From contig NZ_LZDD01000001.1 of assembly GCF_001885095.1 (NCBI RefSeq), positions 744,001-808,000 of the forward strand: DNA of 64,000 nt. The letters are read 5' to 3'. Each line of letters begins with the position of its first letter. The first letter of the stretch is position 1. The stretch is from Streptococcus bovimastitidis. Its GTDB lineage: Bacteria; Bacillota; Bacilli; Lactobacillales; Streptococcaceae. Shown in pieces: positions 6,740-21,156 of the stretch. The notes below the pieces were generated by a model, which worked only from the letters and a program-made list of their open reading frames with translations, was not told the DNA's origin and did no database searches. The translations under genes and the position numbers were made by a program.

Positions 6740-7876
6740 TTAATGACCAAATAAGACCGATTCAAGTTTTTTTGCAGTAACCGACCAAACAAAGGATGAT
6801 TGAATTTGTTCTTGAATGTTTTTTTGTAGGTTAGCTCTTCTAGAATGATCTTCAACAAGCGATACCAAAGCAGTTCTTAAGGACTCTTCATTTTCTTCAA
6901 TGATGATACCTAATCGGTCATTGGTAATGACTTCTGTCGTACCACCACGATCCGTTGCAATGACTGCCGTACCTAATAATCCTGCTTCTAAAATTGAAGT
7001 CGGCAAGCCTTCTGGGTACATAGATGGATAAACAAAAATATCAGACTGTGCCATCAATGACATGGTTTCTTGAAAATTCAACTTACCTAAAAAATGGATA
7101 TTGGCATTTTGATTATTCGACATTAATTCCTCAAGCAAGGGGCCATCACCTGCAATTTGCAAGTGAATATTTGCCGGAAAATCTGCTTTCTCAAAAGCTT
7201 GAACCAGCATAGCGACACCCTTCTCCTTGAGAATTCGACCAGCATATGTTATATATAATTCTTGCTCTTTTTTAGGTAAATAGCTTGCGCCCTGAAACTG
7301 CTGAGCTAAATCATCCGGAACAGAATTATAGATAACCCCACTAGATTTAATGGAAAAATGCTTAAGCCAATTCGAACTCCGTTCGGACACTGCAAAAAAT
7401 TGAGGATGATAAGATTTAACACGACCAGTCAAGAGATGCTCATAGATAGCACCAAAAACATCTAATATCTTGTTATTTACTGTAAAATGACTACTACCAT
7501 GGTCAAGGACAATACTTGGAAGTCCTTTACTTTTAGCATACTTTAAACCCATTAAAGTTGTCAATTGAAAACGGGTATTACAGATGACATAGTCAGCTTG
7601 CTCAGATAAAAGTTTTTGATATAAATCCTCATACTCTTGGTTCTTATCTAAGAACGGATAACGCTGTTTAAATTGTTTTTTCGACGGGAAACGATAAATT
7701 TTACGACCATTATCTATCTCAAAATTTGGCAATTGATCATGATTGGTGGTTACAATAATAATATTGTAACCCAATTTAAGGAGTTCATTGGTTAATTTAT
7801 CCGTGTAACGCTCAATTCCACCTAAGAAGGGGAGAAAATAACCAGAGAAAAATAATATTGTTTTTTTATCTGCCAT
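6740..7876 (-). CDS. Family 4 glycosyltransferase
   Basis: A 378-residue GT-B fold enzyme. The N-terminal half has the SGYFLPFLGGIERY segment, and the C-terminal half has TYAGRILKEKGV and the donor-site motif E-x7-E in PEGLPTSILEAG near residue 285. It should transfer a sugar from a nucleotide donor to the lipid-linked polysaccharide in the cytoplasm; donor and linkage cannot be read. A TTG at 7885 extends the frame by three residues, but the ATG at 7876 is more likely. It is the last glycosyltransferase of the locus, 40 nt after the flippase, and its codon use is closer to the housekeeping genes than that of its upstream neighbours. Confidence 0.88.
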   Translation of the reverse strand: MADKKTILFFSGYFLPFLGGIERYTDKLTNELLKLGYNIIIVTTNHDQLPNFEIDNGRKIYRFPSKKQFKQRYPFLDKNQEYEDLYQKLLSEQADYVICNTRFQLTTLMGLKYAKSKGLPSIVLDHGSSHFTVNNKILDVFGAIYEHLLTGRVKSYHPQFFAVSERSSNWLKHFSIKSSGVIYNSVPDDLAQQFQGASYLPKKEQELYITYAGRILKEKGVAMLVQAFEKADFPANIHLQIAGDGPLLEELMSNNQNANIHFLGKLNFQETMSLMAQSDIFVYPSMYPEGLPTSILEAGLLGTAVIATDRGGTTEVITNDRLGIIIEENEESLRTALVSLVEDHSRRANLQKNIQEQIQSSFVWSVTAKKLESVLFGH

Positions 7877-7916
7877 TGCTATCAACTTTCATATTTTATT
7901 TCATTAATTCAAAATA

Positions 7917-9320
7917 TTAACGCTTAATTATTTTTACAACTGGCGCTTTCAACACAACTAGAATTAGAATATAAGTAGATGAACCGATAATAGTTAAAAT
8001 TCCATAATTAATAATATTATCAGCTAATTTCAAGTCTAAAAAATACATTAATGGAGTAGAAATCAATGCCGCAAGAAAATATTTTAGAATTCCTCCAAAA
8101 ATTTCCGAAGGTGAAAATACATCTCTTAAAGAATACACTTGGTAAAATGAAACCATAAATTCTGTGAGCACTGAAGATAAAATAGCCCCCATCGCCCCCA
8201 TTCCTGGAATTAATACAATATTTGCAATAATATTAACAATAAGGCCAAAAACAGCTGATAAAGTATATGATCTAGTCCTATGTGAAGCTAATAAATATTG
8301 ACCTCCAAAAGCATTTCCATATGAAATAAGTAACACCATAATTGATTGAACCGCCATTAAAGGACCCACAGCACTAAAATCTTTGCCAAAAAAGAAAATA
8401 GCAAATGAGGAAGATACTGCTACAGTTCCAGAAATCATTAAAAATGAGATTGCATTGCTTATTTCTAATAGTTTCAATGTTAAAATTTTTGCCTCTTCAA
8501 ATTTTTTTTCAGCGAACAGACTAGATAACCTTGGTAAAAATACTCCTCCAATAGCAGTTACTATAGTAAATAAAACTCTAATTAATTTATCTGACTGATC
8601 AAAATATCCAGCAGAATGAACAGAATCCATAAGACCTAACATACTTTTATTAAGAGATAAGTAAATTTGCATAGTAATTTGTGGTAGGAATAAATATAAT
8701 GCTGGTTTCAAATGTCTAAAAACATTTAATTCTTTTATTGAAAGGTAGTTGATTTCATTTTTTAAGAATGGCCAAACTGTTAAATTACCAAGAAACATTG
8801 AAAATGCAATTAAAAAAATATATAATCCTAAGTCTGATTTATCTTTTATCAAAATAAATGTAAGGGCAACTGTAGTTAATTTAACAACTGCATTTCTTAC
8901 AACAATTTTTTTGAAATCTTCGACACCAATAAAGTACCATGATATATCAATCATGGTAGCTATCAAATTAATTCCTTGTAATAAATATAATATTTGCCAT
9001 TCCTTTACGAAGGAAATAAAAATCAGGTATACAAGCAAAGAAATTGTTGCTGAAAAGAATTTAAGATATACTAGCTCCCAAAATACTTTACTTCTTTTTT
9101 CCTTGTCTTTTTGAAATGATGCAATTTCCCTATTACCATACAAATTAATACCTAAAGCCCCTGCCAAAGTAAAGTAATTTGCAATAGATAAAGTAAAAGC
9201 ATTAATACCCACTCCTTCAGGGGTAAGGACTCTGGAAATATATGGTATTGTTATTAAAGGCAATATTAATGATAATAATTGGAATGAAGTATTATAAATC
9301 ATATTTTTGACTAATTTCAA
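7917..9320 (-). CDS. Wzx-type polysaccharide flippase
   Basis: A 467-residue, very hydrophobic protein with about 12-14 membrane segments and the N-terminal pattern LVKNMIYNTSFQLLSLILPL followed by ITIPYISRVLTPEGVG, characteristic of the Wzx/RfbX branch of the MOP exporter superfamily. It should move undecaprenyl-linked oligosaccharide to the outer face. This matters because classic streptococcal rhamnan loci export through an ABC transporter (RgpC/RgpD or GacD/GacE), and none is present in this locus. The gene is clearly AT-rich. It lies between the DUF2142-like gene and the GT4. Confidence 0.9.
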   Translation of the reverse strand: MKLVKNMIYNTSFQLLSLILPLITIPYISRVLTPEGVGINAFTLSIANYFTLAGALGINLYGNREIASFQKDKEKRSKVFWELVYLKFFSATISLLVYLIFISFVKEWQILYLLQGINLIATMIDISWYFIGVEDFKKIVVRNAVVKLTTVALTFILIKDKSDLGLYIFLIAFSMFLGNLTVWPFLKNEINYLSIKELNVFRHLKPALYLFLPQITMQIYLSLNKSMLGLMDSVHSAGYFDQSDKLIRVLFTIVTAIGGVFLPRLSSLFAEKKFEEAKILTLKLLEISNAISFLMISGTVAVSSSFAIFFFGKDFSAVGPLMAVQSIMVLLISYGNAFGGQYLLASHRTRSYTLSAVFGLIVNIIANIVLIPGMGAMGAILSSVLTEFMVSFYQVYSLRDVFSPSEIFGGILKYFLAALISTPLMYFLDLKLADNIINYGILTIIGSSTYILILVVLKAPVVKIIKR

Positions 9321-9382: not shown

Positions 9383-10723
9383 TTATCTTTTTAAATCAAT
9401 AATAGTGTTGAAAATTACCATCAAGTTAGTAAGAATAGAAGAGATTACAACACTAAAAGTCAAATAGTAACTTTTTTTCAAAATAAGCTTGTTACCAATT
9501 CCAGCAACAAAAATTAACAATAGTAAAAGTGTTGGAGTGAAATATCTCCCTTGAACACCTTTAATATATGAAGTACCATCAGCCCCATAACTTAATTGAA
9601 TGTAGTATACACCTAGCATTCCAATTATAAATAAAAACAAGGCGAAAATACTTAGTGATAAATTTATAACAAATTTTTCTTCACTAAGTAAAACAATTAC
9701 TAATAATACTATCCATAAAGCTGTAACCCATGAAGGCATATTACTATACCCTGGGTATGGTTCTGCAAGCCATGAATTCAAAGTGAAACTATTTTTATAG
9801 TCAAAAACTATTGTCATAAAATACCTTTGTAACACAATTTTTATTCCTCCTTGTGGAATGCAAATTACGTAAAGAAATACTAAAAACAAGCTTAAACCAC
9901 TTAATAAAAAAAATAGTTTACGACTTTTTATAAAATACAGAATATCAAGTATTATTTTTCTATACTTCAACGTGTATGTATTTTTCGATTCAAATAATGT
10001 GAAAAATAGAATTAAAATTATTATCCAATAATTTTGTTTAGATGCAATTATTAAGAAAATTATGGATGATATTAATGATTTAATAGGTAGTTCTTTATTT
10101 GGTTCTGCAAGAATATTAATGTTTAACATTAAAAAAACTGAAACTGCTAAAATACTAGCCGCATCATAAGATAAACTTGCAATTAAATTCATCACTACTG
10201 GACTTAAAAATATAGTTGCAAAGACTAATTTCCCGTATTTCAACTTCTTAATTACAAGAAACAAAGCTATTACATAAATGAATGAAGAAAAAATTCGCCC
10301 ACAGGTTATCATAATACCTAATGAAGGATAGATTAGTCGTCCAATAAATATTCCTATAGCTGGCACAACATGTCCAAAAAAAACATAATTATGATATGAA
10401 AACCTAATATTTCTAGGAACAATGGATGAATTAATAATTTTAGCTTTATTCAAGTAATATTTTTCAAAATGTGTTCCATTTTGATAAGATTCTTTCTGAT
10501 CACTCATACCCGTCACTACATGATCCACGCCGTATCTCGAAGTATCTACAGATGAATTTACTATTCTACTTGAAACTGCAAAATGATACTGTCCATCTGG
10601 CTCATTAAATAATGGCATAGATAAGCTTAAAGTAATTGTAATTAGTAACCCGAATATTAAAAAAAGATTTTCAATTTTATATTTATCAAATTCTATTTTT
10701 ACTTTTTCAATTAATTGAAACAT
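9383..10723 (-). CDS. DUF2142-like polytopic membrane protein (candidate GT-C transferase or polymerase)
   Basis: A 446-residue protein with about ten or more membrane segments. After the first segment it has NEPDGQYHFAVSSRIV (residues ~40-55), and near the C-terminus GVQGRYFTPTLLLLLIF; both resemble the conserved ends of DUF2142 proteins, which are found in polysaccharide loci. An acidic residue just after the first membrane segment is also a feature of lipid-phosphate-sugar-dependent GT-C enzymes. With no Wzy or ABC exporter evident, this protein could polymerise or decorate the glycan outside the membrane. That role is inferred. It is strongly AT-rich. Confidence 0.65.
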   Translation of the reverse strand: MFQLIEKVKIEFDKYKIENLFLIFGLLITITLSLSMPLFNEPDGQYHFAVSSRIVNSSVDTSRYGVDHVVTGMSDQKESYQNGTHFEKYYLNKAKIINSSIVPRNIRFSYHNYVFFGHVVPAIGIFIGRLIYPSLGIMITCGRIFSSFIYVIALFLVIKKLKYGKLVFATIFLSPVVMNLIASLSYDAASILAVSVFLMLNINILAEPNKELPIKSLISSIIFLIIASKQNYWIIILILFFTLFESKNTYTLKYRKIILDILYFIKSRKLFFLLSGLSLFLVFLYVICIPQGGIKIVLQRYFMTIVFDYKNSFTLNSWLAEPYPGYSNMPSWVTALWIVLLVIVLLSEEKFVINLSLSIFALFLFIIGMLGVYYIQLSYGADGTSYIKGVQGRYFTPTLLLLLIFVAGIGNKLILKKSYYLTFSVVISSILTNLMVIFNTIIDLKR

Positions 10724-10756: not shown

Positions 10757-10782
10757 TAATTTGATAATACATTATCAAATTA
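10757..10782 (-). repeat. Hairpin at the 3' end of the SDR gene, without a T-run
   Basis: TAATTTGATAAT and ATTATCAAATTA are perfect inverted repeats (arms of 11-12 bp). The SDR stop codon lies inside one arm. In the direction of transcription no T-run follows, so it looks like an mRNA-stabilising or processing stem rather than a terminator. Confidence 0.5.
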
Positions 10783-11791
10783 AGATACTAAATAAATTAT
10801 CAATCGCATTTTCCATATTAAATGATTCCGTCCATCCCAATTTTTTTAATTTTGAATTAGATAATAAAGAATTTACAATTTGTGAACCACCTTTGGTATC
10901 TGAAATATCAAATTGTAAATTCACACCAGCTTTATCTGCTAATATTTGTGCAAACTCTCTCAATTGTACATTTCCAAAGTCCGATGAAATATTATATGCT
11001 TCACCATTTTTTCCGTCAAGCATAACCTCAAGCATTGCAGTAACACAATCGAAAACATAGGTATAAGAGCGTTTTTGAACTCCTTCAGACCGTAATATTA
11101 TATTTTCTTTTGATAAACAAGACTTAATGAATTCAACATCGGCTCTTGTATTTGATTCTGAAAACCTTGGACCAAAAATATAAGCCGGACGTACTATTAC
11201 CGCATTTACTTTAAACTCTTTAATATATGAACATATTAAAGTTTCAGCTAATCTTTTACTTTCTGAATAACATGATCTAGGGGAGAGTATATCAATTTTT
11301 CCATAGTTCTCTTCTAAATGAGAATCAAAATTTCGGTCCAATTCTCCATATACTTCTGAACTAGAGACAAATAATAATCTAGCTCCAGTTTCATGAGATA
11401 ATTTCAACACATTTTCAGTTCCTCTAACTGTAATCATTATTGTTTCAACAGGAAATTGATCATAAGCTTTAGGATGAGCATTGCTTGCAATATGGAAAAT
11501 ATAATCTAGGTCGCTATCAATACTTATTAAATCCTCAACGCTTTGATTTAATACAATTACATTAGAATTTGAAAAAAATTTTTGAGAAATAAACTTTGAC
11601 CTGACTAAGGCATAAATTAAAATATTAGCGTTATATTTATCATTTAAAAATTGAAAAAAATCTAATAAAGTACCACCAATTAGTCCGTTTGCTCCTGTAA
11701 TCAAAATCTTTTTATTGTAAAATTTATTGTATTGATTTTTATTAATTTTTTCTAAAGTATTAATATAATTTTTTTCATCAAAATCTCTCAC
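10775..11791 (-). CDS. NAD-dependent epimerase/dehydratase (extended SDR) paired with the cytidylyltransferase
   Basis: A 338-residue SDR with the cofactor motif TGANGLIG (residues 32-39) and the catalytic YSESK near residue 173. The family includes sugar-nucleotide epimerases and dehydratases, but in several capsule loci an SDR next to an IspD-like cytidylyltransferase reduces a ketose phosphate so that a CDP-polyol is made. The start overlaps the cytidylyltransferase stop by 4 nt, so the two are translationally coupled. I infer a role in CDP-polyol supply; a plain NDP-sugar epimerase remains possible. Confidence 0.75.
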   Translation of the reverse strand: MRDFDEKNYINTLEKINKNQYNKFYNKKILITGANGLIGGTLLDFFQFLNDKYNANILIYALVRSKFISQKFFSNSNVIVLNQSVEDLISIDSDLDYIFHIASNAHPKAYDQFPVETIMITVRGTENVLKLSHETGARLLFVSSSEVYGELDRNFDSHLEENYGKIDILSPRSCYSESKRLAETLICSYIKEFKVNAVIVRPAYIFGPRFSESNTRADVEFIKSCLSKENIILRSEGVQKRSYTYVFDCVTAMLEVMLDGKNGEAYNISSDFGNVQLREFAQILADKAGVNLQFDISDTKGGSQIVNSLLSNSKLKKLGWTESFNMENAIDNLFSILI

Positions 11792-12498
11792 CGGATAAAA
11801 TCGTCCTTTCTAGTTGTAAGAAGTGCTTTAAAAATTAATAAATCATCAACAGTTGTAATTTTCAAATTTGTTTCAGCACCTTTAGAAAAATATACTTTTT
11901 TTCCAAGTTCATGCATTAAGGCACAAGTTGCTGCAGTATTACTGATACCTTTTTTTGAAGCTTCGAGATGTGCAGAAATAACATCTTTAACAGGATAAAT
12001 ATGAGGTGTTTGAGTTCGATATAAAATCTCTCTTGGCACAGAATCTTCTGCAATTAAGGCATCATGACTTGTAAATACTGCTTCTACGGTAGGTATTGCT
12101 GCTACAGCAGAACCATATTGATTAAAAGTTGCAACTGCACTTGAAATTATTTCTGATGTAACGAGTGGTCGGTTTCCATCATGAATCAAAACTGTAGAAT
12201 CTTCAGAAGCAAACTTTACAATTGATTTGATCCCATTTGCTATTGATTCTTGACCAGTGCTTCCACCAACAACAATATCTTTCAGTTTGGTGATGTTAAA
12301 TTGTTTAGCATATGCTCTAACAACTTCGACCCAAGATTCTAGTGTAACAATAACTATTCCATCAATATTTGGATCTTTCTCAAAAACTTCCATTGTGTAA
12401 ATAATTATAGGTTTATTATTTACATGAAGAAATTGTTTAGGTATGTCTTGACCCATTCTAGTACCAGTACCGGCTGCTGTTAGTAGTGCTGTAATCAT
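11788..12498 (-). CDS. TarI/IspD-type cytidylyltransferase
   Basis: A 236-residue enzyme of the IspD/TarI family. Visible motifs are the N-terminal CTP site LLTAAGTGTRMGQDIPKQF (residues 5-23), the GG-x-T-G-Q-ES segment (VVGGSTGQES) and VLIHDGNRPLV. IspD makes CDP-methylerythritol; TarI and capsule homologues make CDP-ribitol or other CDP-polyols. Streptococci generally use the mevalonate route, so an isoprenoid role is unlikely, and the neighbours (SDR, LicD, glycosyltransferases) favour CDP-polyol synthesis. The polyol cannot be read; ribitol, glucitol, mannitol and arabinitol are all possible. Confidence 0.82.
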   Translation of the reverse strand: MITALLTAAGTGTRMGQDIPKQFLHVNNKPIIIYTMEVFEKDPNIDGIVIVTLESWVEVVRAYAKQFNITKLKDIVVGGSTGQESIANGIKSIVKFASEDSTVLIHDGNRPLVTSEIISSAVATFNQYGSAVAAIPTVEAVFTSHDALIAEDSVPREILYRTQTPHIYPVKDVISAHLEASKKGISNTAATCALMHELGKKVYFSKGAETNLKITTVDDLLIFKALLTTRKDDFIR

Positions 12499-12511: not shown

Positions 12512-13453
12512 TTATTTTTTAAATATGAAAATAATGTCTTTAAAATAATTTCCTACTCCATTATAAAGTTTAAAATTGAAAATCATCTGTATAACAGTTT
12601 TAACAATATTTCTATCTTCAGCATTTTTAATTCTCTCTTTATAGAAAGAAACAAACTTAGAAATCTTTTGTGTATCTGGATGATTTAATTCATTTAAGAC
12701 ATTGAAAATAACATCATAGTAAATGTACATATTATTAAGTACAGAAATATGTTCTGAATTAGAACTTTTTATGTTTAATAAATTTCCACTTGCATTGTTA
12801 TCATGTCTAACATGCAATACAACTGGGACATTAAAATTATAGCCATTACCGATAATACCAGATAAACCTGAAAATAGATTATCATGTGTAGTTCCAATAT
12901 TTTGTTTATAGTTTCTTGCAACTAAATCTAAGAAAGGCTTTCTGATGCACATAACAAGTCCTGGTCTATAACTAACATAGTTTAGTGAATATGGATATTT
13001 TGAAAGTTTATTTTTATCACTATCACTAAATTTAAAAACATTTGGCATAAACGCTTCATTAGAAATACTTTTCACTTCAATATCAGACGATAAAACATCA
13101 ATATTTTCATTTTTTTCCATTATATCAGTTTGTATCTCATTTTTATTCAAAAACCACTCATCATCTTGATCTGAAATAAATACATAATCTACATCATAAG
13201 ATGAAACGTCTAGCATTAGCTGTCTAAAGTTTAATCTCCAACCTAAATTTTTTTCATTTTTTTTAATAGTCCAACCTATTAACTGATATTTCTCAATATA
13301 TTTTTTTACAATATCTACTGTGTTGTCAAAAGACCCATCGTCTCTAATTAATACAAAAGTAGGTTGTAATGTTTGTCTTCTTATTGAGTCAAGTTGAATT
13401 TCTATATTTTCCGAACCATTATATGTAGCCATTAATACTGCTGATTTTATCAA
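12512..13453 (-). CDS. Family 2 glycosyltransferase (RgpB-like, copy 3)
   Basis: A 313-residue GT-A enzyme with ATYNGSENIEIQLDSI at the N-terminus, the LIRDDGS segment, and the metal-binding ISDQDDEW motif near residue 93. These match the rhamnosyltransferase-like GT2 at 17160-18101 in layout and in exact length, but the sequences have diverged and this copy is far more AT-rich. It should add one sugar, perhaps rhamnose, to the repeat unit. The start has a normal AGGAGG-like site (CATAGGAGGATATTTTG). Confidence 0.85.
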   Translation of the reverse strand: MIKSAVLMATYNGSENIEIQLDSIRRQTLQPTFVLIRDDGSFDNTVDIVKKYIEKYQLIGWTIKKNEKNLGWRLNFRQLMLDVSSYDVDYVFISDQDDEWFLNKNEIQTDIMEKNENIDVLSSDIEVKSISNEAFMPNVFKFSDSDKNKLSKYPYSLNYVSYRPGLVMCIRKPFLDLVARNYKQNIGTTHDNLFSGLSGIIGNGYNFNVPVVLHVRHDNNASGNLLNIKSSNSEHISVLNNMYIYYDVIFNVLNELNHPDTQKISKFVSFYKERIKNAEDRNIVKTVIQMIFNFKLYNGVGNYFKDIIFIFKK

Positions 13454-13473: not shown

Positions 13474-14301
13474 TTATTTCCAGTACCATGTGTAATAACT
13501 GTGATTTTCCCGCTTATCTTCAGGAGGTAACTCCATATAGAATTTGCCATAAAGCTGATTCAAATAAGCATGATCATTTTTTATTTTTCTTACAGTTAAG
13601 TTTTCAAATGGCGTATCTTCATATTCTGAAAATAATTCGACAGGAAAATGTTCTTTTAATCGGTAGCGTGAATCTGTATATCCAATATATGGAACATTTT
13701 GTTCATTGTATGTTCTCATAATTTGATCCAATACTTGAGCTTGTTTTTTTGCTTGGCCATGATACTTTAGAAAACGAGGCAATCCTAAAACTAATCTAGC
13801 AAAAGCATATAACTTACGGGACCCACTAGCATAATTAGGATAAGTGGTACACATGAGATTTGCTGCCGCATTATGAACTTTTTTAAAGAACTTTTCTCGA
13901 TCCTCAGCAGTCTCTGGTAATTTGTCCATAGGGAAAATATCAATAAAAATTCCAGTCCATGGGTGAATCCGGTCTGTTTTGCTTTGATACATTGATTTTG
14001 TATGATAGAGTTTGGCGAAAGGCCAAAGATTAGGCTCTACAGAGTGATGTAAGAGTTTATAATCAGCATCTTCTTGTCTAGCCAATAGCTTCATCAATTT
14101 TTCATACTCACTTCTTTTAAGCATTAAATCAATATCGTCATCCCAAGGGATAAAGCCTTGGTGACGGATTGAACCTAAGAGACTTCCGCCTGCTAACGAA
14201 TAGTTGATATTATTTTCCTTTGCCAAAGTATCAATATAAGAAAGCATCTCTAATTGAACTTTCCTAATTTCTGCAACCGTCATTTTTTTCATATTTTTCA
14301 C
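13474..14301 (-). CDS. LicD-family phosphotransferase
   Basis: A 275-residue LicD protein. The core signature is clear: LAGGSLLGSIRHQGFIPWDD-DIDLML at residues 37-61. LicD proteins transfer phosphocholine or other phospho-alcohols from CDP donors to surface glycans. With the CDP-polyol pair at 10775-12498 in the same operon, this enzyme most likely attaches a polyol phosphate to the wall polysaccharide. Its frame begins with a GTG that overlaps the upstream stop (GTGA), with ATGs four and seven codons in; the exact start is uncertain. Its base composition is closer to the chromosomal average than that of its neighbours, which suggests a separate origin. Confidence 0.88.
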   Translation of the reverse strand: MKNMKKMTVAEIRKVQLEMLSYIDTLAKENNINYSLAGGSLLGSIRHQGFIPWDDDIDLMLKRSEYEKLMKLLARQEDADYKLLHHSVEPNLWPFAKLYHTKSMYQSKTDRIHPWTGIFIDIFPMDKLPETAEDREKFFKKVHNAAANLMCTTYPNYASGSRKLYAFARLVLGLPRFLKYHGQAKKQAQVLDQIMRTYNEQNVPYIGYTDSRYRLKEHFPVELFSEYEDTPFENLTVRKIKNDHAYLNQLYGKFYMELPPEDKRENHSYYTWYWK

Positions 14302-16088
14302 TTTTCATTTGATTTATTTTTAGGATTTATCAGTAAAAACACTGTAAATAAATAAATAAATAAAACTATTAACAATCCCAGTGCTAATAGTATGTAGGGA
14401 TTGACTGGCGTATTTATTTTTTTATTTTTCTTGTTTAATGGTATCGCATTATATTCATTTTGGCCATATTCAAAATCTAAAATCTGTCCATTAATTTCAT
14501 AGTTTAAATATTGTGCATAACTTTTACTATTTATATTAGCAATAAAATCAATTCGCTCACTTCTTAATTCATAACCTTTAGGAACTTTAGTTTGAAGCAA
14601 AAAATATTTATAATTGCTTGATAATCCTTCAATCGTAAATAAGGATTTTGATATTTTTCTTTGTTCCTTAATATTATAATCCCAAATTTTTTTATTAAGT
14701 TCAAATTTTTGAGTCAATCCATCCATCGTATACCTGGATCCACCCCTAATTTGAAAATAATTATTTCTATTTCTTAAATATTTTTTAATAAAATGTTTAC
14801 TAAAATCATTTGTATTTTTAGTTGGACTCCATTTCGGCTTTCCATATTTTGAACCAGAATAGATACCTATTTGATTATTCTCATCAATACGACCTAAAAT
14901 ATAATTTCCACCATAATATAATTTATTACTATTAGAATTAAACATCGCAAAATTAACCTTATAACTAGTTAAATAAGGTGTAAAATAATATTTTTGTCCA
15001 TCACTAACTAATATTCCTTGTTTATATCTTGAGTTTTCTATATTTAGTTTTTCTTGTGATTTATTCAAATTATTAGCATCTAAATTTCTCTGAGCCTTAA
15101 TTTGGTAATTTGTATTAGAAACAACATGACCTTTAATAATCAGAAATTTTTTATCAATATTTTTAAAATCAAAATTATATCTATAAATTGACTGAAACTT
15201 ACTTAACTCTTTTTCAATAACTTGCTTCTGTTCTTCGGCTGTATTTTCACTACTATTATAATAAATGATATTATTACTAAATTCTAATTCTGTATCATTT
15301 TCAAGCAACCCATTTTTTCCGATTTTGTACGGAGAAAAATTTAATTCTTTTTCGTAAGGTAAATTTACAGAATCAATAACAAAATTCGGAGAAATATCTA
15401 CTCGTAATTTAGTTTTATTGCTAATTGGAATATGATATTCAACGGTTTCTCCATAATCAACAGATAATTTTTTTTTCGATTTTTTATCATTTGTTTTAAT
15501 AAAAATTCCACTAGAAAAATCTGTATTTCCTAATGATATTTTTTGATTACTATTAATATTTTTAATCTCAAAGTCTTTAGTATCAATTGATGATACAAAT
15601 AAAGTAAGGCCCCCTTCTATCTTTCCAATTGTATTTCCTTCTTTATTAGTAAATTTATACTTAGTGTTTTCAGGGTTTGACAAAGTTATTTGTGGACCAA
15701 AATCATTAATAAAATCCAAATAATCAAGATTCGTTTTGTAGAGTTCCGAAATAATATCCTTTGCTTCACTGTAACTTGTTTTGAGATTTTTTCCGAATTT
15801 TAATTTATTGTTTAAAAACACTTTCTCATTTTCAACTCTGTAATTACTCTTTAACTTTGAAACTGAAAAATGTTTAAAGTCAGACTCTTTAAAATCACCT
15901 TTCATCAACTTATTTTTTGCATTTTCATAATTCTTTGCAATAATTTGAATACTATAAATTGGATTGTTATTATAACTATAGTTTACTTCAATATCATATT
16001 GCTTTTTTTCATCAGCAAAGACACAATTTGACTCAATATTTGTAAAAACAAAGAATACTGATAACACAACTAATAAAACTCGTCTCAT
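14298..16088 (-). CDS. Secreted, membrane-anchored pilin-like (degenerate SpaA domain) protein of unknown function
   Basis: A 596-residue protein that I do not recognise as a known family. Residues 1-25 are a signal peptide (cleavage near CVFA-DE). The long extracellular part is rich in Asn, Lys and Tyr. Near residues 484-515 it has FTIEGLSS...FLLQTKVPKGYEL, which resembles the end of a Cna-B/SpaA isopeptide domain (usual form F-x-I-x-G-L ... L-x-E-x-x-A-P-x-G-Y), but the position of the usual catalytic Glu is Gln. A membrane segment at 564-587 and a short basic tail follow; a sorting motif should precede it, but only NTPVNP is there, so sortase anchoring is not expected. It overlaps the gacJ-like stop by 1 nt and the licD start by 4 nt, so it is coupled to glycan genes. 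Very AT-rich. Confidence 0.7.
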   Translation of the reverse strand: MRRVLLVVLSVFFVFTNIESNCVFADEKKQYDIEVNYSYNNNPIYSIQIIAKNYENAKNKLMKGDFKESDFKHFSVSKLKSNYRVENEKVFLNNKLKFGKNLKTSYSEAKDIISELYKTNLDYLDFINDFGPQITLSNPENTKYKFTNKEGNTIGKIEGGLTLFVSSIDTKDFEIKNINSNQKISLGNTDFSSGIFIKTNDKKSKKKLSVDYGETVEYHIPISNKTKLRVDISPNFVIDSVNLPYEKELNFSPYKIGKNGLLENDTELEFSNNIIYYNSSENTAEEQKQVIEKELSKFQSIYRYNFDFKNIDKKFLIIKGHVVSNTNYQIKAQRNLDANNLNKSQEKLNIENSRYKQGILVSDGQKYYFTPYLTSYKVNFAMFNSNSNKLYYGGNYILGRIDENNQIGIYSGSKYGKPKWSPTKNTNDFSKHFIKKYLRNRNNYFQIRGGSRYTMDGLTQKFELNKKIWDYNIKEQRKISKSLFTIEGLSSNYKYFLLQTKVPKGYELRSERIDFIANINSKSYAQYLNYEINGQILDFEYGQNEYNAIPLNKKNKKINTPVNPYILLALGLLIVLFIYLFTVFLLINPKNKSNEK

Positions 16089-16432
16089 TAATCTTTATCC
16101 TCAATTTCTTTTTTTAACAAGGAAACTTCTTGTATCAGTTTTTTGATTTGCTCTTCTTTTCGAGTAGAACTTTGGGTATCAAAAATCTCCAAGACAAACA
16201 AGAAAAGGACAGCCATAAACAAAAGAAAGTTCATAGTTAAAGCAAATCCTGCTCGATGTGCTACGATGGAGACAACTTGTGGAAAAACACTGATAAAGAC
16301 AAGTGAAAAACCAACAAATAGCCAAGGGGTAGCTCTTCTTACTGAAAAAGAATGTTTATTGACCATGCGAATAATAGCATATAAAATTATTAGGGCCAAA
16401 ATAAACATTTCGATTTGTAGAAATAAACTCAT
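16088..16432 (-). CDS. gacJ: GacJ-like small membrane protein (DUF2304)
   Basis: A 114-residue protein with three membrane segments (residues 5-22, 37-54, 68-88) and a charged C-terminal coiled coil. It matches DUF2304, and in S. pyogenes the DUF2304 protein GacJ forms a complex with GacI and increases its GlcNAc-phosphate-undecaprenol synthase activity. The order GT2 then DUF2304, with a one-base overlap on each side (16432 and 16088), is the same here. The gene symbol is by analogy. Confidence 0.8.
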   Translation of the reverse strand: MSLFLQIEMFILALIILYAIIRMVNKHSFSVRRATPWLFVGFSLVFISVFPQVVSIVAHRAGFALTMNFLLFMAVLFLFVLEIFDTQSSTRKEEQIKKLIQEVSLLKKEIEDKD

Positions 16433-17157
16433 TAATCTTGCTCCTTCATAAATCCAGCAATCAGAATTGAAATTAGCACATCAATCATATAAGTCACTGA
16501 TTTGAAAGCTCTAATACTTGAGACGCCTTCTAAACGTTCAAACATGTTGGCTGGCATTTCTTTTACTCTAAGCCCTTTTTTCAAAAGTCGGACGATTGAT
16601 TCCGGCTCAGGATAAGCCACTGGGTAGCGTTGAGCAAAATAAGCAATGACTTTCTTATTTCCTGCACGATAACCACTAGTGGTATCGTAAATTTTTTTGC
16701 CAGTTGTCAGTTTAATTGCTATGGAAATTAAATTAATTCCTAATCGACGCATAAAAGTTGATTGGAAATTCTCAATCGATTTATCAACAAAACGGGAGCC
16801 TATGACAAAATCAACCTCATCATCTAAAACCGGTTTTACGACCTCAGCGATACTATTAATATCATGTTGACCATCCCCATCAAATTGGACAGCGATGTCA
16901 TAATTTTGTCTTAAGGCATAAATATAGCCTGTTTGAACACCACCACCAATTCCTAAATTTTGAATTAAGTCGATATGCTGTAGTTGCTTTTGATCCAAAA
17001 TTTGAGCTGTTGAATCTGTTGAGCCATCATTAATAACAATATAGTCCAATTGAAATGAAAGATCGTGTTGCTCACGAAAAGCAACAATTTTTGCAACTGT
17101 CTTTTCGATACTACCCTCTTCATTATAGGCTGGAATAATTAATAGAACTTTTTTCAT
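16432..17157 (-). CDS. gacI: GacI-like polyprenyl-phosphate sugar synthase (GT2)
   Basis: A 241-residue GT2 of the dolichol-phosphate-mannose-synthase type: LLIIPAYNEEGSIEKTVAKI at the N-terminus, IVINDGSTDST, the metal site VQFDGDGQHD near residue 97, and GSRFVDKS. There are no C-terminal membrane helices, so it should depend on its DUF2304 partner for the membrane. In S. pyogenes GacI makes GlcNAc-P-undecaprenol, the donor for the GlcNAc side chain added outside the cell. The donor sugar here is inferred from that homologue. It lies 2 nt downstream of the RgpB-like gene. Confidence 0.82.
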   Translation of the reverse strand: MKKVLLIIPAYNEEGSIEKTVAKIVAFREQHDLSFQLDYIVINDGSTDSTAQILDQKQLQHIDLIQNLGIGGGVQTGYIYALRQNYDIAVQFDGDGQHDINSIAEVVKPVLDDEVDFVIGSRFVDKSIENFQSTFMRRLGINLISIAIKLTTGKKIYDTTSGYRAGNKKVIAYFAQRYPVAYPEPESIVRLLKKGLRVKEMPANMFERLEGVSSIRAFKSVTYMIDVLISILIAGFMKEQD

Positions 17158-17159
17158 TT

Positions 17160-18101
17160 TTATCTCGCATTATATAGATTTGTAAGCAATAATAGTCTAA
17201 AAACAATAATATGTTTCCATTGATTCTTTGTGTACTTATATTTTATGATACGACGAAGTCGCTCAGGAAAAGCTTTTTGATCAATGTCAATATAGTGAAG
17301 TAGGACTTCTCTGTCTTTAGGAGCTAAATTATCACTTTCTGTTTCAAGAATTTTTTGGGCTTGCTGCTGTGATTCATGGATTAACTTCCAATAGCGTGTA
17401 AAAATATGACGAGGGCCTTCTCGCAAAATTTTAAAGCGTTTATCAAGTGTTCTAGCCCCCAAAACATTGTTACTGTGCTGACGATATAATTCACCTGGTA
17501 TATCAATATAAATCAATTTTCCAAGACTTGAAGCTATCAAGGCTAAGTACCAGTCATGCATGATAATGCCATCAGGTGATTTCCATTTTTCTGCCAAGGC
17601 ATGATTGATCAACATGACTCCACCCGTAACAGTGTTCTCAGAAAGTTCCTGAATCATTTTTGTATTGGCATGTCCTGACTGAGAACGAATCATGCTTTCA
17701 TTGATGACATTCAAGTTTTGATCCACCACTTTTAGGTCCATATAAACAGCCAATGGTATTTCCTGATCATGCTTTTGACCCTCTTGCAATTGAATGGCCA
17801 ACTTATCTGGTAACCATACGTCATCTTGATCACTAAATAAATAGTAGTCAGCTTCTTCATGTTTTAAGAGTGTGAAGAAATTTTTGATGACACCGAAATT
17901 AACACGATTATTAGCATTGATAAAACGAATCCGACTATCTTTAGCCACAAACTCTTGGATGATTTCCGGTGTGTGATCAGTCGAACCATCATCCCTGATT
18001 AAGAGTGTCCAGTCTGTAACTGTTTGTTTTTGAATGCTTTCAATCTGTTCTGCTAGGAACTTTTCACCGTTGTAGGTGGACATTAAAATGTTAATTTTCA
18101 T
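17160..18101 (-). CDS. rgpB: Rhamnosyltransferase RgpB/GacC
   Basis: A 313-residue GT2 with MSTYNGEKFLAEQIESIQKQ, LLIRDDGSTD and LFSDQDDVW (residue ~93), followed by ADKW-type acceptor segments. It corresponds in sequence and place to RgpB/GacC, which extends the rhamnan with alpha-linked L-rhamnose from dTDP-L-rhamnose. Its start overlaps the rgpA stop by 11 nt. Two more GT2 genes of exactly the same length lie in this locus (12512-13453 and 20215-21156). Confidence 0.88.
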   Translation of the reverse strand: MKINILMSTYNGEKFLAEQIESIQKQTVTDWTLLIRDDGSTDHTPEIIQEFVAKDSRIRFINANNRVNFGVIKNFFTLLKHEEADYYLFSDQDDVWLPDKLAIQLQEGQKHDQEIPLAVYMDLKVVDQNLNVINESMIRSQSGHANTKMIQELSENTVTGGVMLINHALAEKWKSPDGIIMHDWYLALIASSLGKLIYIDIPGELYRQHSNNVLGARTLDKRFKILREGPRHIFTRYWKLIHESQQQAQKILETESDNLAPKDREVLLHYIDIDQKAFPERLRRIIKYKYTKNQWKHIIVFRLLLLTNLYNAR

Positions 18102-19245
18102 TTAAAAATAAGGCCTCATATTCACTAACAATTTTGTCCCAAGTGTATTCTTTCTGGATAATCTCCTTGGCTTGCCGACCTAAATCATCATAGTTGTGGC
18201 GACCATCAACACTTTCAATTAACTGAGCCAGCACCTTATCATCTTTGGTCCAATACAAAGCGCCAGTTTTTGCCACCGACTTATTAAAATCAACATTGAA
18301 GACCAAATTTAGATTTGTATGGGCCAATGCTTCTAGTAGCCCAGGATTGGTTCCTCCGACCTCGTGTCCATGGATGTAGGCGAAGGCATTTTCACGAATG
18401 TAGGTTAATAACTGACGATCATACTGGGTACCTACAAACTTGACCCGTTGATCCTTTTCAAAGTGTGTAGTTGATTTCAAGGCCTCAAAGAATCCATTAC
18501 CTTCATGGTTGCAAATCACGACCAAATCACGCTCTGTCTGTGAAGCCATAAATTCTTTGATAATAGTCTCATAGTTGTTCTCAGGAACAAAGCGACCAAT
18601 GACTAAATAATAATTTTTCTCACTGATTTGAAACTGATTGAAATAGTCACGAACCTTGTCTTCTTCAAAAGTTAAAGTAGATGGTTCTGTATCAGTTCCA
18701 TAAGCAATAAATTTAGTCTTAGCCCATGGATAGGCTTCCTTAATGTAGGTTTCAATTCCTAAATTATCTGAAATGACTAAATCAGCTTTTTTGGTCATTT
18801 GCTTTTCAGCATATTTCAAATACCATTGAACTGGCTTAGACCATTTACTGCGTTTCCATTCGAGGCCATCAGGATTGATGAAAAACTGACCGGTATGCTT
18901 TTTAATTTTTTTTGCAAAAGATCCGATAAAGGCACCAATAGTGTTACCAAGAATGTAAAAAATGGGATTTTTAATATTTTGACGATCACATAGTTTCAGA
19001 GCATAGTTAATGGCCATCATGTCATAAGCGATGACTCGTGCAGGGCCAATCTTTGGTGGATTAAGGTAAAAACAATCGATTCCTTTGAAATCAAAGTGTT
19101 CTTTATGTTTTGAATCACTGAGACAGGCAACGTGATAACGGATGTCTCCACTTTTTTGATGACTGATTAGCTCTTCGACAAAAGTTTCAAAGCCACCATA
19201 TTTTGCCGGTAATCCTCGACTACCAATGATAAATACATCCTGCAT
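18091..19245 (-). CDS. rgpA: Rhamnosyltransferase RgpA/GacB
   Basis: A 384-residue GT4 with an N-terminal DUF1972 domain, opening with DVFIIGSRGLPAKYGGFETF. RgpA/GacB adds the first L-rhamnose to GlcNAc-PP-undecaprenol and so primes the polymer. The C-terminal half has VIGRFVPENNYE and GGTNPGLLEALA (donor-site Glu near residue 316). An extended -10 promoter lies 36 nt upstream of the gene and a terminator separates it from rmlD, so rgpA can head its own transcript. Confidence 0.92.
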   Translation of the reverse strand: MQDVFIIGSRGLPAKYGGFETFVEELISHQKSGDIRYHVACLSDSKHKEHFDFKGIDCFYLNPPKIGPARVIAYDMMAINYALKLCDRQNIKNPIFYILGNTIGAFIGSFAKKIKKHTGQFFINPDGLEWKRSKWSKPVQWYLKYAEKQMTKKADLVISDNLGIETYIKEAYPWAKTKFIAYGTDTEPSTLTFEEDKVRDYFNQFQISEKNYYLVIGRFVPENNYETIIKEFMASQTERDLVVICNHEGNGFFEALKSTTHFEKDQRVKFVGTQYDRQLLTYIRENAFAYIHGHEVGGTNPGLLEALAHTNLNLVFNVDFNKSVAKTGALYWTKDDKVLAQLIESVDGRHNYDDLGRQAKEIIQKEYTWDKIVSEYEALFLNEN

Positions 19246-19280
19246 TCACAATGCCCCATTCTAAAATATAATCAATAAAT

Positions 19281-19289
19281 ATTATAGCA
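19281..19289 (-). promoter_or_regulatory. Extended -10 promoter upstream of rgpA
   Basis: On the minus strand TGC-TATAAT (TATAAT at 19281-19286) with no good -35 box at the usual distance. It is positioned between the rmlD terminator and the rgpA start. Confidence 0.55.
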
Positions 19290-19321
19290 TAAATAGTGAC
19301 TTTTTACGAGATTTTACCATG

Positions 19322-19354
19322 AAAAAATGAGCTCTGCCACTAGGGCAAAGCTCA
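19322..19354 (-). terminator. Terminator after rmlD
   Basis: Minus-strand stem TGAGCTTTGCC / GGCAGAGCTCA (one G-U pair), then TTTTTTC. The rmlD stop codon lies at the base of the stem. Confidence 0.85.
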
Positions 19355-20218
19355 TTCTTCAGCTTGTTTTTTGATTTCTTGTTGATAAAATTCATGTAAA
19401 GCATCTTGCCACATTGGAATCTTAAATCCAGTTGCTTTTGCCTTATCTAAATTCATGGTTGAATTAAGTGGACGCTTAGCTTTTGCCGGAAAGGCAGAAG
19501 AATCAACAGGAACTACTTCCACGTCAGTATCTTTTAAGATTTCCTTGGCAAAATCATACCAGCTGGTATCTTCTTTGGAATCATTTGAGAGATGATAATA
19601 ACCAAATTCCTTATTGTTTTCAGCTAAATAACACATAAATTCAGCAAGGGTACGAGTCCATGTCGGACGACCAAACTGGTCATTAACTACTGTAAGTTTG
19701 GGATGACTTTTTGCAAGATTTTGCATAGTGAAAACAAAGTTTTTGCCGTAATTACCAAATACCCATGCAGTTCTAATAATATAGAATTTTTCAGCATATT
19801 TTTCTACTGCTTCTTCACCAAGTCGTTTAGTGCGACCATATTCTGTTTTAGGATCTGGAACATCTGTTTCAAACCACTCTTGACCTACTGTTTTTGTCCC
19901 GTCAAAAACATAGTCAGTTGAAATATAAACTAATGTAGCATTATATTTTTGACAAGCTTTTGCGATATTTACTGTACCATCAACGTTGATTGCTTGGTTT
20001 AATTCTTTGCCTTCATCTTCTGCAGCATCAACTGCCGTATAGGCTGCGCAGTGGTAAACCAATGTCGGTTTCACTTGTGAAAAGACTTGGTCAACCATTT
20101 CAGCATTTGTAATATCCATTTCAACAACATCTACTGCTACATATTCTTCATTACGCTCATCTAATAAATAACGTAATTCTGTTCCAAGCTGTCCATTACT
20201 ACCAGTAATTAATATCAT
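19352..20218 (-). CDS. rmlD: dTDP-4-dehydrorhamnose reductase
   Basis: Reduces dTDP-4-keto-L-rhamnose to dTDP-L-rhamnose, the donor for the rhamnan backbone; equivalent to GacA of S. pyogenes. The 288-residue SDR starts ILITGSNGQLGTELRYLL (NAD(P)-binding TGxxGxxG), has the YISTDYVFDG segment and the catalytic YGRTK near residue 128. The other genes of the pathway (rmlA, rmlB, rmlC) are not in this window. It overlaps the upstream GT2 by 4 nt and ends in its own terminator. Confidence 0.95.
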   Translation of the reverse strand: MILITGSNGQLGTELRYLLDERNEEYVAVDVVEMDITNAEMVDQVFSQVKPTLVYHCAAYTAVDAAEDEGKELNQAINVDGTVNIAKACQKYNATLVYISTDYVFDGTKTVGQEWFETDVPDPKTEYGRTKRLGEEAVEKYAEKFYIIRTAWVFGNYGKNFVFTMQNLAKSHPKLTVVNDQFGRPTWTRTLAEFMCYLAENNKEFGYYHLSNDSKEDTSWYDFAKEILKDTDVEVVPVDSSAFPAKAKRPLNSTMNLDKAKATGFKIPMWQDALHEFYQQEIKKQAEE

Positions 20219-21156
20219 ATTTTCTCCTTATTCAGCAATTCTTGCAAGATATTCTTGGGCATTTTATATTTGAACAACAATAAAAAGTTTAATGCAATTG
20301 TCTCAATTAATGATTTTCGCCTAAGTTTTAGTTCCATCAATGTTTTTAATCTATTGAAAAAGTTCATTTTAGGAATACTTACAAAGCTTTTTAAAAAACC
20401 TTTATGGTATTTATCCATATATTTTTCATAGTCATCCAATACAAGTTGACTACGAACAAATGACATTTCCATCATTTTCCAAAAAGTTTCAATACCAAAT
20501 CCTCTACCATAATTAGAAATTGACTCTGAAGACGATAATCTTCTCCAAAGGATCGTAGATTTAGGAATATAAATGACATTACCTATGGTATATGCTATTA
20601 GAGCAACAAATGAATCATGTGCACCCCATTTACGATAATTCCATATTTTAACCAATTTATCATTAAGCATCATTGACATTCCATTAATTTGATTAAATGA
20701 AATTTGTTCATTAATTGTTGTTTTTGGAAATACTTCTTTTAAAAGATTCAAGTTTTCATCAACTGTTGTCCAACCAGAATAAACAAGTTCAGGTTTTTCA
20801 GTTTCAAAATTTGTTTTTGATAAAAACAATTCAATTTTGTTTTTTTTCCAAATATCATCTTGATCACAAAAAAAATAATAATCAGCTTTTTTATATTTCA
20901 CCAATTCAAAAAAAGATCTGTGACTACCTAAGTTTTCAATCTGCCCACAATTAATAAACTCAAATTTTGAATTTTTCTCGCAATAATCTTTAATCAGATC
21001 GATTGTTCCATCAGTTGAACCATCATCTCTAATTAAACACTCCCAATTTTGATAAGTCTGATATTTAATACTGTCTAACTGCTCAATTAAATACTTTGCT
21101 CCATTATAAGTTGCAATACAAATGTTAACTTTTGGATTTAAAGCATGTTCATTCAT
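20215..21156 (-). CDS. Family 2 glycosyltransferase (RgpB-like, copy 1)
   Basis: A 313-residue GT2 with IATYNGAKYLIEQLDSI, LIRDDGSTD and FFCDQDDIW (residue ~100). It is a divergent, AT-rich relative of the RgpB-like enzyme downstream. It stands between the sufT-like gene and rmlD, a place with no gene in the S. pyogenes gac arrangement that I know, so it may be an insertion. It should transfer rhamnose or another sugar to the growing glycan. Ribosome binding site AGGAAGG, 7 nt before the ATG. Confidence 0.85.
   Translation of the reverse strand: MNEHALNPKVNICIATYNGAKYLIEQLDSIKYQTYQNWECLIRDDGSTDGTIDLIKDYCEKNSKFEFINCGQIENLGSHRSFFELVKYKKADYYFFCDQDDIWKKNKIELFLSKTNFETEKPELVYSGWTTVDENLNLLKEVFPKTTINEQISFNQINGMSMMLNDKLVKIWNYRKWGAHDSFVALIAYTIGNVIYIPKSTILWRRLSSSESISNYGRGFGIETFWKMMEMSFVRSQLVLDDYEKYMDKYHKGFLKSFVSIPKMNFFNRLKTLMELKLRRKSLIETIALNFLLLFKYKMPKNILQELLNKEKI

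Follow-up and report, generated by a model that had tools for sequence, protein, structure and literature searches.

A probable WpsH-type membrane protein with a predicted pilin fold in the group B carbohydrate-type locus of Streptococcus bovimastitidis

The window analysed here is a 64,000-nucleotide stretch of the Streptococcus bovimastitidis genome (contig NZ_LZDD01000001.1, positions 744,001–808,000) that contains a group B carbohydrate (GBC)-type locus. Within this locus an open reading frame (ORF) at 14298–16088 encodes a 596-residue protein that we take, with a probability of roughly 0.7, to be a polysaccharide co-polymerase (assembly partner) of the WpsH family using a repurposed sortase-type pilin as its extracytoplasmic part. 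The gene and the parts of its product are as follows.

14298–16088, minus strand: WpsH-type membrane protein with predicted pilin fold (the protein under study), defined by its ORF, its relatives and the predicted fold
16014–16088, minus strand: signal peptide, approximately residues 1–25, without a lipobox in the window protein
15516–16007, minus strand: domain D1, residues 28–191, like a pilin N-terminal domain; the weakest part of the fold case
14964–15515, minus strand: domain M, residues 192–375, predicted pilin middle-domain fold (VIA-align)
14418–14963, minus strand: domain C, residues 376–557, predicted SpaA/Cna-B type lacking the isopeptide Lys and Glu
14328–14399, minus strand: C-terminal membrane helix, residues 564–587

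The ORF begins with ATG. Its product starts like a signal peptide, continues as a long polar ectodomain and ends in a single membrane helix with NTPVNP in front of it; the signal peptide, the helix and NTPVNP are as described in an original prediction made from the sequence alone. The same prediction gave the gene a 1-nt overlap with the DUF2304 (gacJ) gene at 16088–16432, which is present, and a 4-nt overlap with licD, which exists only if licD begins at its GTG; this second overlap is uncertain because 12 of the 13 other streptococcal loci match LicD from residue 4 onward, and an in-frame ATG is available there. The window protein alone falls below every Pfam and NCBIfam cut-off and has no SpaA match. 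All 14 streptococcal members of its family have the C-terminal membrane helix, seven have a lipobox, and none has a further strong hydrophobic segment between the two ends; half of the streptococcal members are thus probably anchored in the membrane at both ends, N-terminal lipid included. Members from other genera are similarly arranged, with 12 of 15 passing a topology filter for signal peptide, outer block and C-terminal transmembrane helix. Selection on the gene is purifying: the ratio of nonsynonymous to synonymous substitution (dN/dS) is 0.16–0.26 in four pairs, in most pairs above the licD and Wzx values. A decayed pseudogene is rejected on these ratios, and the earlier description of the protein as decayed is further contradicted by the presence of the family in other Streptococcaceae.

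A whole-genome search finds the family in 14 of 284 Streptococcus genomes, including the window's own, with one copy each. Carriers include S. agalactiae, S. suis (two strains), S. porci, S. thoraltensis, S. catagoni, S. pseudoporcinus, S. penaeicida and S. halichoeri; one further Streptococcus genome was matched by a profile of the 14 members, but that match is a true pilin. All 14 copies lie in a syntenic GBC-type locus and no other setting was found in Streptococcus. The locus is the GBC cluster, and in the window it contains the following genes besides the one under study.

17160–19245, minus strand: a GT2 gene and an RgpA-like gene at the conserved start of the locus (PF00535 for the GT2; both present in the 13 other loci; rgpA is our label)
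16432–17157, minus strand: GT2 glycosyltransferase, GacI/WpsA-like (PF00535; the gene preceding DUF2304 in 14 lactococcal-type loci is 50–55% identical)
16088–16432, minus strand: DUF2304 protein, GacJ/WpsB-like (PF10066, E 1.1e-23)
13474–14301, minus strand: LicD-family phosphotransferase (PF04991, E 3.3e-55)
12512–13453, minus strand: GT2 glycosyltransferase in the exchanged part of the locus (PF00535)
11788–12498, minus strand: IspD-type cytidylyltransferase, probably for CDP-alditol (PF01128)
10775–11791, minus strand: SDR-family oxidoreductase, presumed partner of the IspD-type enzyme (sub-cut-off NCBIfam matches only)
9383–10723, minus strand: DUF2142 (GT-C type) membrane protein, WpsI-like, the predicted polymerase partner (PF09913, E 3.9e-18)
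7917–9320, minus strand: Wzx-type flippase (PF01943, E 1.5e-26; present in the 13 other streptococcal loci)
6740–7885, minus strand: GT4-type glycosyltransferase at the locus end (our label, by synteny)

The RgpA-like, GT2, GacI-like GT2, DUF2304, pilin-fold and licD genes are common to the window and the 13 other loci, as are the IspD-type, SDR, DUF2142 and Wzx genes and one or more GT2 genes; in the window only, one GT2 precedes the IspD-type gene rather than following the SDR gene. The best NCBIfam match of the IspD-type protein is D-ribitol-5-phosphate cytidylyltransferase (162.5 bits, just under the cut-off of 166). DUF2304 is the left neighbour of the pilin-fold gene in all 14 loci, and licD is the right neighbour in nine, with an extra GT2 between in the other five; a constant position between DUF2304 and licD, as raised in the original prediction, does not hold, and in other genera the gene is mostly beside DUF2142. 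Membership in polysaccharide assembly is supported: all 29 full-length relatives with surroundings inspected (14 streptococcal and 15 others) are within polysaccharide loci, and homologues sitting mostly outside such loci were not encountered among them.

The GBC cluster is described in the 2016 review PMC4931226 as gbs1480–gbs1494. There gbs1482 is the flippase and gbs1483 and gbs1490 are membrane proteins; S. pseudoporcinus lacks gbs1485, and S. thoraltensis lacks both gbs1481 and gbs1485. The S. agalactiae locus agrees with this account when its 15 genes are numbered from rmlD as gbs1494. By this gene order the S. agalactiae copy of the family would be gbs1489, and the DUF2142 gene gbs1483.

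The pilin-fold gene is closely associated with one type of DUF2142 gene. A query with the window DUF2142 protein matches in 92 of the 284 Streptococcus genomes, and the 14 best matches (E ≤ 2.6e-98; next 1.4e-33) are in exactly the 14 carrier genomes, with the two genes on the same strand of the same locus in every one. Distances over the 14 loci, with the trend of the rgpA, GT2 and GacI-like genes removed, give partial correlations with the pilin-fold protein of 0.78 for Wzx, 0.77 for DUF2142, 0.72 for GT2, 0.48 for SDR, 0.43 for LicD and 0.41 for IspD; with the loci dereplicated to 10 they fall to 0.60 for Wzx, 0.51 for DUF2142, 0.42 for GT2, 0.24 for LicD and 0.22 for IspD. S. penaeicida, the closest of the 13 other loci in the conserved genes, has 95.0% nucleotide identity to the window at 16092–20228, no blastn match and 31% protein identity in the pilin-fold gene, and 87.8% identity in licD, followed by a differing stretch from the IspD-type gene to DUF2142 (42% protein identity for DUF2142; blastn pieces of 200 and 38 bp). 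This is most simply read as a swap of the pilin-fold gene nearly end to end, with the adjoining licD kept.

In other genera the two genes are mostly side by side. A DUF2142 search of 117 sampled Streptococcaceae genomes (Streptococcus included) gave matches in 70, and 20 loci were fetched, 19 from other genera and one from Streptococcus. The 14-member profile finds a homologue in 15 of these 20 loci (E 7e-54 to 1.1e-23), directly adjoining DUF2142 in 14 and with one intervening gene in the 15th; the order flippase, homologue, DUF2142 occurs in seven of the 15, the flippase of locus L130 being recognised by size and hydropathy only. A profile search of the 50 non-Streptococcus genomes of the sample, not selected by DUF2142, finds the family in 24, with 25 copies, 22 of which are no more than 150 bp from a same-strand DUF2142 gene (for the 10 copies other than the 15 mentioned above, the DUF2142 neighbour alone was inspected). 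The family is not confined to the GBC-type locus. The 21 DUF2142 genes most like that of the window (E ≤ 2.3e-55) are all in family-carrying genomes. Across 11 of the 15 loci (omitting L127, a near-duplicate of L126; L133, with a split copy; L135, with no recognised Wzx; and the incomplete L141), the homologue co-varies with the adjacent DUF2142 protein (r 0.83), a value reached by 0 of 5000 permutations. It does not co-vary with another DUF2142 protein, picked by hand in each locus (−0.03), or with Wzx (0.10), DUF2304 (0.13) or the GacI-like protein (0.07). Of these comparisons the one with Wzx is a weak control, since in four of the 11 loci (L126, L129, L130 and L131) Wzx was chosen by size and hydropathy only. 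Locus L133, which otherwise looks complete, carries the gene split in two ORFs (13518–15193). One Streptococcaceae genome (G630, C26:20492–38829) contains two WpsH-type genes in a single region, each beside its own DUF2142.

These arrangements correspond to a pair of proteins described in lactococci (PMC12599335, PMC10821137, PMC8327497). In these accounts WpsI is a DUF2142 protein with 11 membrane helices and is the polymerase, and WpsH, whose single large outer part is flanked by a signal peptide and a C-terminal helix, is proposed to be a co-polymerase or regulator of WpsI. Proteins at the wpsH position in Streptococcaceae match the 14-member profile at E 7e-54 and weaker. By position, topology and profile homology the window protein is provisionally filed under the WpsH family, and it is less new than was originally proposed, its topology and position having a counterpart in the proposed lactococcal co-polymerase.

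Structure prediction and a fold search, proposed as checks in the original prediction, returned the pilin-type fold that it had suggested. The AlphaFold2 model of the window protein was built from a ten-sequence alignment, with a mean predicted local distance difference test (pLDDT) score of 81.6 and a predicted template-modelling (pTM) score of 0.74. Among the best 45 Foldseek matches in the PDB, 44 are titled as pilins or pilus proteins (best E 4.1e-14), including LrpA, SpaD of L. rhamnosus GG, EbpB and RrgB; the remaining one is SSA1632 of S. sanguinis. VIA-align superimposes the middle and C domains on those of EbpB (9lj6; Z 12.9, 3.1 Å over 208 residues), with rows covering model residues 192–557. 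D1 modelled alone (pLDDT 89) aligns with the pilin N domains 9llw and 5yxo (Z 8.8, 2.2 Å over 102 residues). Absence of other folds from the Foldseek and VIA-align lists was not counted as evidence. The ectodomain is thus predicted to consist of three pilin-type domains in the order found in sortase-type pilins, and the predicted fold says that the protein derives from a pilin or shares an ancestor with pilins.

Sequence comparison is consistent with this for the C domain. The 14-member profile aligns it to pilin C domains in hhalign with a probability of 97% (E 3.4e-11) and a score of 91.8, compared with at most 26.9 in 100 column-permuted controls; this E value is not independent because the pilins compared are those that the profile itself had found. 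With a limit of E 1, the SpaA family PF17802 is found in six of the 14 streptococcal members (best E 2.3e-5) and not in the window protein; the match of the S. thoraltensis member, at 29.7 bits, is above the Pfam cut-off of 23.1. PF17802 also matches, at E up to 1, 10 of the 25 members of a wider alignment from which L020, L022 and L025 (near-duplicates) and L133 (copy split in two ORFs) were omitted. Glu545, Asn128 and Trp420 (window numbering) are among the positions that do not vary in this wider alignment. The SpaA-like motif that the original prediction recognised is supported by hhalign at about residues 481–507, with Glu replaced by Gln499, although its P-K-G-Y part is not conserved in the family.

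Several defining features of pilins were looked for and are absent, and the protein is not a pilin in this sense. Pattern searches of the 14 streptococcal members find neither LPXTG nor a YPKN-type motif, and inspection of the 14 other-genus rows of the wider alignment by eye showed no LPXTG; all 10 true pilins inspected for comparison carry a YPK motif (by eye). The column of the C-domain isopeptide Lys is Met or Thr in all 14 streptococcal members and that of the Glu is Gln in seven and Pro in seven; one other-genus row (L138) has Glu at this column with no Lys (by eye). The middle domain has no invariant Lys at its start, and the register for its isopeptide Asp is ambiguous. The window genome has one sortase match (C1:596844–597221), approximately 160 kb from the gene, and no pilus-class sortase is present in the gene's own cluster. 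The sortase independence originally ascribed to the protein is in agreement with the missing LPXTG and this single sortase gene.

The preferred explanation is that the protein acts as a WpsH-type partner of the DUF2142 enzyme. Export signal, membrane helix, predicted fold and DUF2142 pairing are all computed for this protein and its relatives. Repeat units would start from the GlcNAc that the GacI/GacJ-like pair makes and grow on undecaprenyl phosphate; LicD would decorate them and Wzx flip them, and the DUF2142 GT-C enzyme would join the flipped units on the outer face. The pilin-fold protein would sit beside this enzyme on the outer face, where it could hold or position the chain or the acceptor and set length or branching. 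Contact with the polymerase, chain holding and size control are what we infer for it, and a molecule anchored at both ends would form an arch over the membrane rather than a projecting fibre. In S. agalactiae, gbs1483 and gbs1489 would together assemble the branched group B carbohydrate.

A number of points weigh against this explanation. In the fold evidence, D1 matches pilin N domains only modestly: its top row by Z is a non-pilin (6hif_Y, Z 9.5 over 77 residues) and Foldseek gives it a single match at E ≤ 0.001, to a DUF3823 protein, D1 being the weakest part of the fold case because these non-pilin rows come first; the fold evidence pertains to the streptococcal protein only; and independently chosen pilins (a usable ORF from three of four fetched regions) match the profile weakly (hhalign 26.8, compared with at most 23.3 in 60 permuted controls). 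In the pairing evidence, Wzx and a GT2 co-vary in Streptococcus about as much as DUF2142, the weak IspD, SDR and LicD partial correlations over 14 loci also pass the permutation test, and three of the 25 non-Streptococcus copies have their nearest DUF2142 gene 1.4, 3.6 and 11 kb away. Adjacent genes can also co-vary by joint transfer; to be set against this, the streptococcal pair is separated yet linked, and licD between them co-varies less. The roles of WpsH and WpsI rest on bioinformatics and gene inactivation in the accounts cited above, PMC10821137 assigns them opposite roles in its text and in a figure legend, and WpsH of L. cremoris is identified here by gene order and topology rather than by accession. 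Neither a functional study of gbs1489 nor any experiment on the window protein was found among the literature matches listed, where the tag gbs1489 occurs in one paper.

The strongest competing explanation, which we consider unlikely, is that the protein works with the flippase, the GacI/GacJ-like pair, LicD or the final transfer to peptidoglycan, and not with the polymerase. It draws on the DUF2304 gene adjoining in all 14 Streptococcus loci, on Wzx giving the highest streptococcal partial correlation, and on PMC4931226, where gbs1489 is put forward as possibly a second flippase and/or an assembly protein. However, the other genera point to DUF2142 and not to Wzx (with its weak control), DUF2304 or the GacI-like protein, and the comparison with S. 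penaeicida shows the DUF2304, GacI-like and licD genes kept while the pilin-fold gene differs. A flippase is itself unlikely because the protein has a single membrane helix, which is too few.

It is improbable that the protein is a surface adhesin, or belongs to a pilus as a lost or base pilin, and that it shares the operon only, acting outward rather than on the glycan. The pilin-type fold, with the basal pilin EbpB among the best matches, would suit such a role, and the pilus operon gbs1474–1479 of S. agalactiae (PMC2674936) numerically adjoins the GBC genes gbs1480–1494. The missing LPXTG and YPKN-type motifs and the pairing and co-variation with the DUF2142 protein argue against it, as does the position of both ends in the membrane in the seven members with lipobox and C-terminal helix, which does not fit a projecting fibre. 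A pilus base was rejected, seven of the 14 carrier genomes (the window's and six of the other 13) having a single sortase gene. That the protein itself carries glycan as a membrane glycoprotein, or senses it, is the least probable of the alternatives: its predicted outer-face location, locus membership and the invariant Asn residues of the 14-member alignment would allow it, but no attachment site or signalling domain is recognised among the Pfam matches and the tail behind the membrane helix is about 10 residues or fewer (by eye).

As a WpsH-type co-polymerase the protein can be compared with four known systems. It resembles WpsH in its signal peptide, one large outer part and C-terminal transmembrane helix with a DUF2142 GT-C polymerase alongside, and homologues occupy the wpsH position in other Streptococcaceae genomes; it differs in that the streptococcal gene follows DUF2304, away from DUF2142, and in the lipobox of half of the streptococcal members. 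With sortase-type shaft and basal pilins (SpaD of L. rhamnosus GG, LrpA, EbpB and RrgB) it shares the predicted three-domain order and fold and the SpaA-type C-domain profile; it differs from them in having no LPXTG, no YPKN-type motif, no C-domain isopeptide Lys or Glu and no pilus sortase in its locus, and in the work in glycan assembly proposed here. The proposed role beside a polymerase joining flipped repeat units is like that of the classical Wzz/polysaccharide co-polymerase (PCP) proteins. These have two membrane helices around a largely helical part, unlike the predicted beta-sandwich ectodomain and one C-terminal helix here, and of the 16 Pfam families that the 14 members match at E up to 1 none is a Wzz family. 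GacL of the group A carbohydrate acts at an outer-face step on a rhamnose polysaccharide begun by a GacI/GacJ pair; it is a GT-C enzyme adding a single GlcNAc, and the description of that system available to us mentions no pilin-like ectodomain protein.

Neither gbs1483 and gbs1489 as a WpsI/WpsH-type pair nor the pilin fold of the family was found in print among the literature matches listed, nor was a description of WpsH as a pilin; the word pilin is absent from the main text of PMC12599335 and PMC10821137, and SpaA from that of PMC12599335. GBC translocation is called "particularly enigmatic" in PMC4931226, where gbs1489 is only a possible second flippase and/or assembly protein and experiments are requested, and a 2021 review, in its table, has N/A where polymerisation of the Streptococcus side-chain decoration would be entered. 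The pair of a DUF2142 polymerase and its WpsH-type partner is a specific candidate for the missing GBC assembly step. If correct, it suggests a new origin for co-polymerases, with a pilus subunit fold turned into a part of glycan assembly, and structural work on the WpsH proteins of dairy lactococci could start from it; the cell-wall polysaccharides of these lactococci serve as phage receptors (PMC8327497). A wider proposal, which we put forward tentatively and at somewhat less than even odds, is that a Gram-positive co-polymerase family descends from sortase pilins, has lost the polymer-forming and isopeptide chemistry, is tethered to the membrane (partly at both ends), and sets the size or branching of DUF2142-made cell-wall polysaccharides, with gbs1483 and gbs1489 as the missing outer-face machine of GBC and strain-to-strain exchange of the pair retargeting it to new repeat units.

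Searches for more distant relatives gave little. With the single protein, a sequence search of the PDB yielded nothing useful, a scan of genome contigs confirmed nothing, and plasmids and phages gave no match; a scan of viral contigs with the alignment likewise confirmed nothing. Two order-level profile searches (395 and 315 genomes) found no full-length match outside Streptococcaceae; their matches outside Streptococcus are short and restricted to the SpaA-type region, 12 of them coming from the search of 315 genomes, and 10 such short matches that were inspected (nine outside Streptococcus, from the search of 395 genomes, and L051 from Streptococcus) are all pilins by eye. The order-level samples seem to hold no Streptococcaceae other than Streptococcus, which would explain why the lactococcal-type relatives surfaced only through the DUF2142 route. 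The wider profile gave eight matches in 187 Streptococcus genomes, consisting of six known members and two short weak ones (G266 and G050). An OST_P1 match of one member (E 0.011) was treated as chance.

The GBC-type loci differ in several further respects. The IspD-type and SDR genes of the window (10775–12498) are another allele than in the 13 other streptococcal loci (34–38% and 29–35% identity), and the IspD-type protein is closer to that of the Streptococcaceae locus L133 (51.5% identity); this strain may therefore add another alditol phosphate. A GT2 gene at 20215–21156, between rmlD and a paaD-like gene, has a best match in the same place only in S. catagoni (58%) among the 13 loci. In S. 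penaeicida (L026, 11097–12475 and 18080–19233) the start of licD is short, and the IspD-type gene and the GT4 gene both fall into two ORFs, so that this locus may be partly broken or may contain draft errors. Two strains recorded as S. suis (L035 and L036) carry the GBC-type locus; the S. suis cluster of PMC13015895 is reported there to have other genes, with no apparent ortholog of known GroP transferases.

SpaA-containing genes also occur near or apart from these loci. In S. agalactiae (G002, C1:815820–820970) SpaA-domain and sortase matches lie approximately 10 kb past the end of the GBC locus, and the published pilus operon gbs1474–1479 is numerically next to gbs1480. The pilin fold might have been taken from such a pilus neighbour, an origin weighed against because the family also occurs in other genera. 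The window genome contains two long open frames of 2219 and 1457 residues (C4:11399–12907 and 19884–21014) with repeated SpaA matches, and these coexist with only the one sortase match. An amidase gene with ChW repeats (4850–6718) follows the window locus, similar genes follow in S. catagoni, S. pseudoporcinus, S. penaeicida and one further genome, and ChW-repeat amidase genes are also beside the locus in three other Streptococcaceae loci (L133, L134 and L141); the ChW-repeat amidase may read the polysaccharide.

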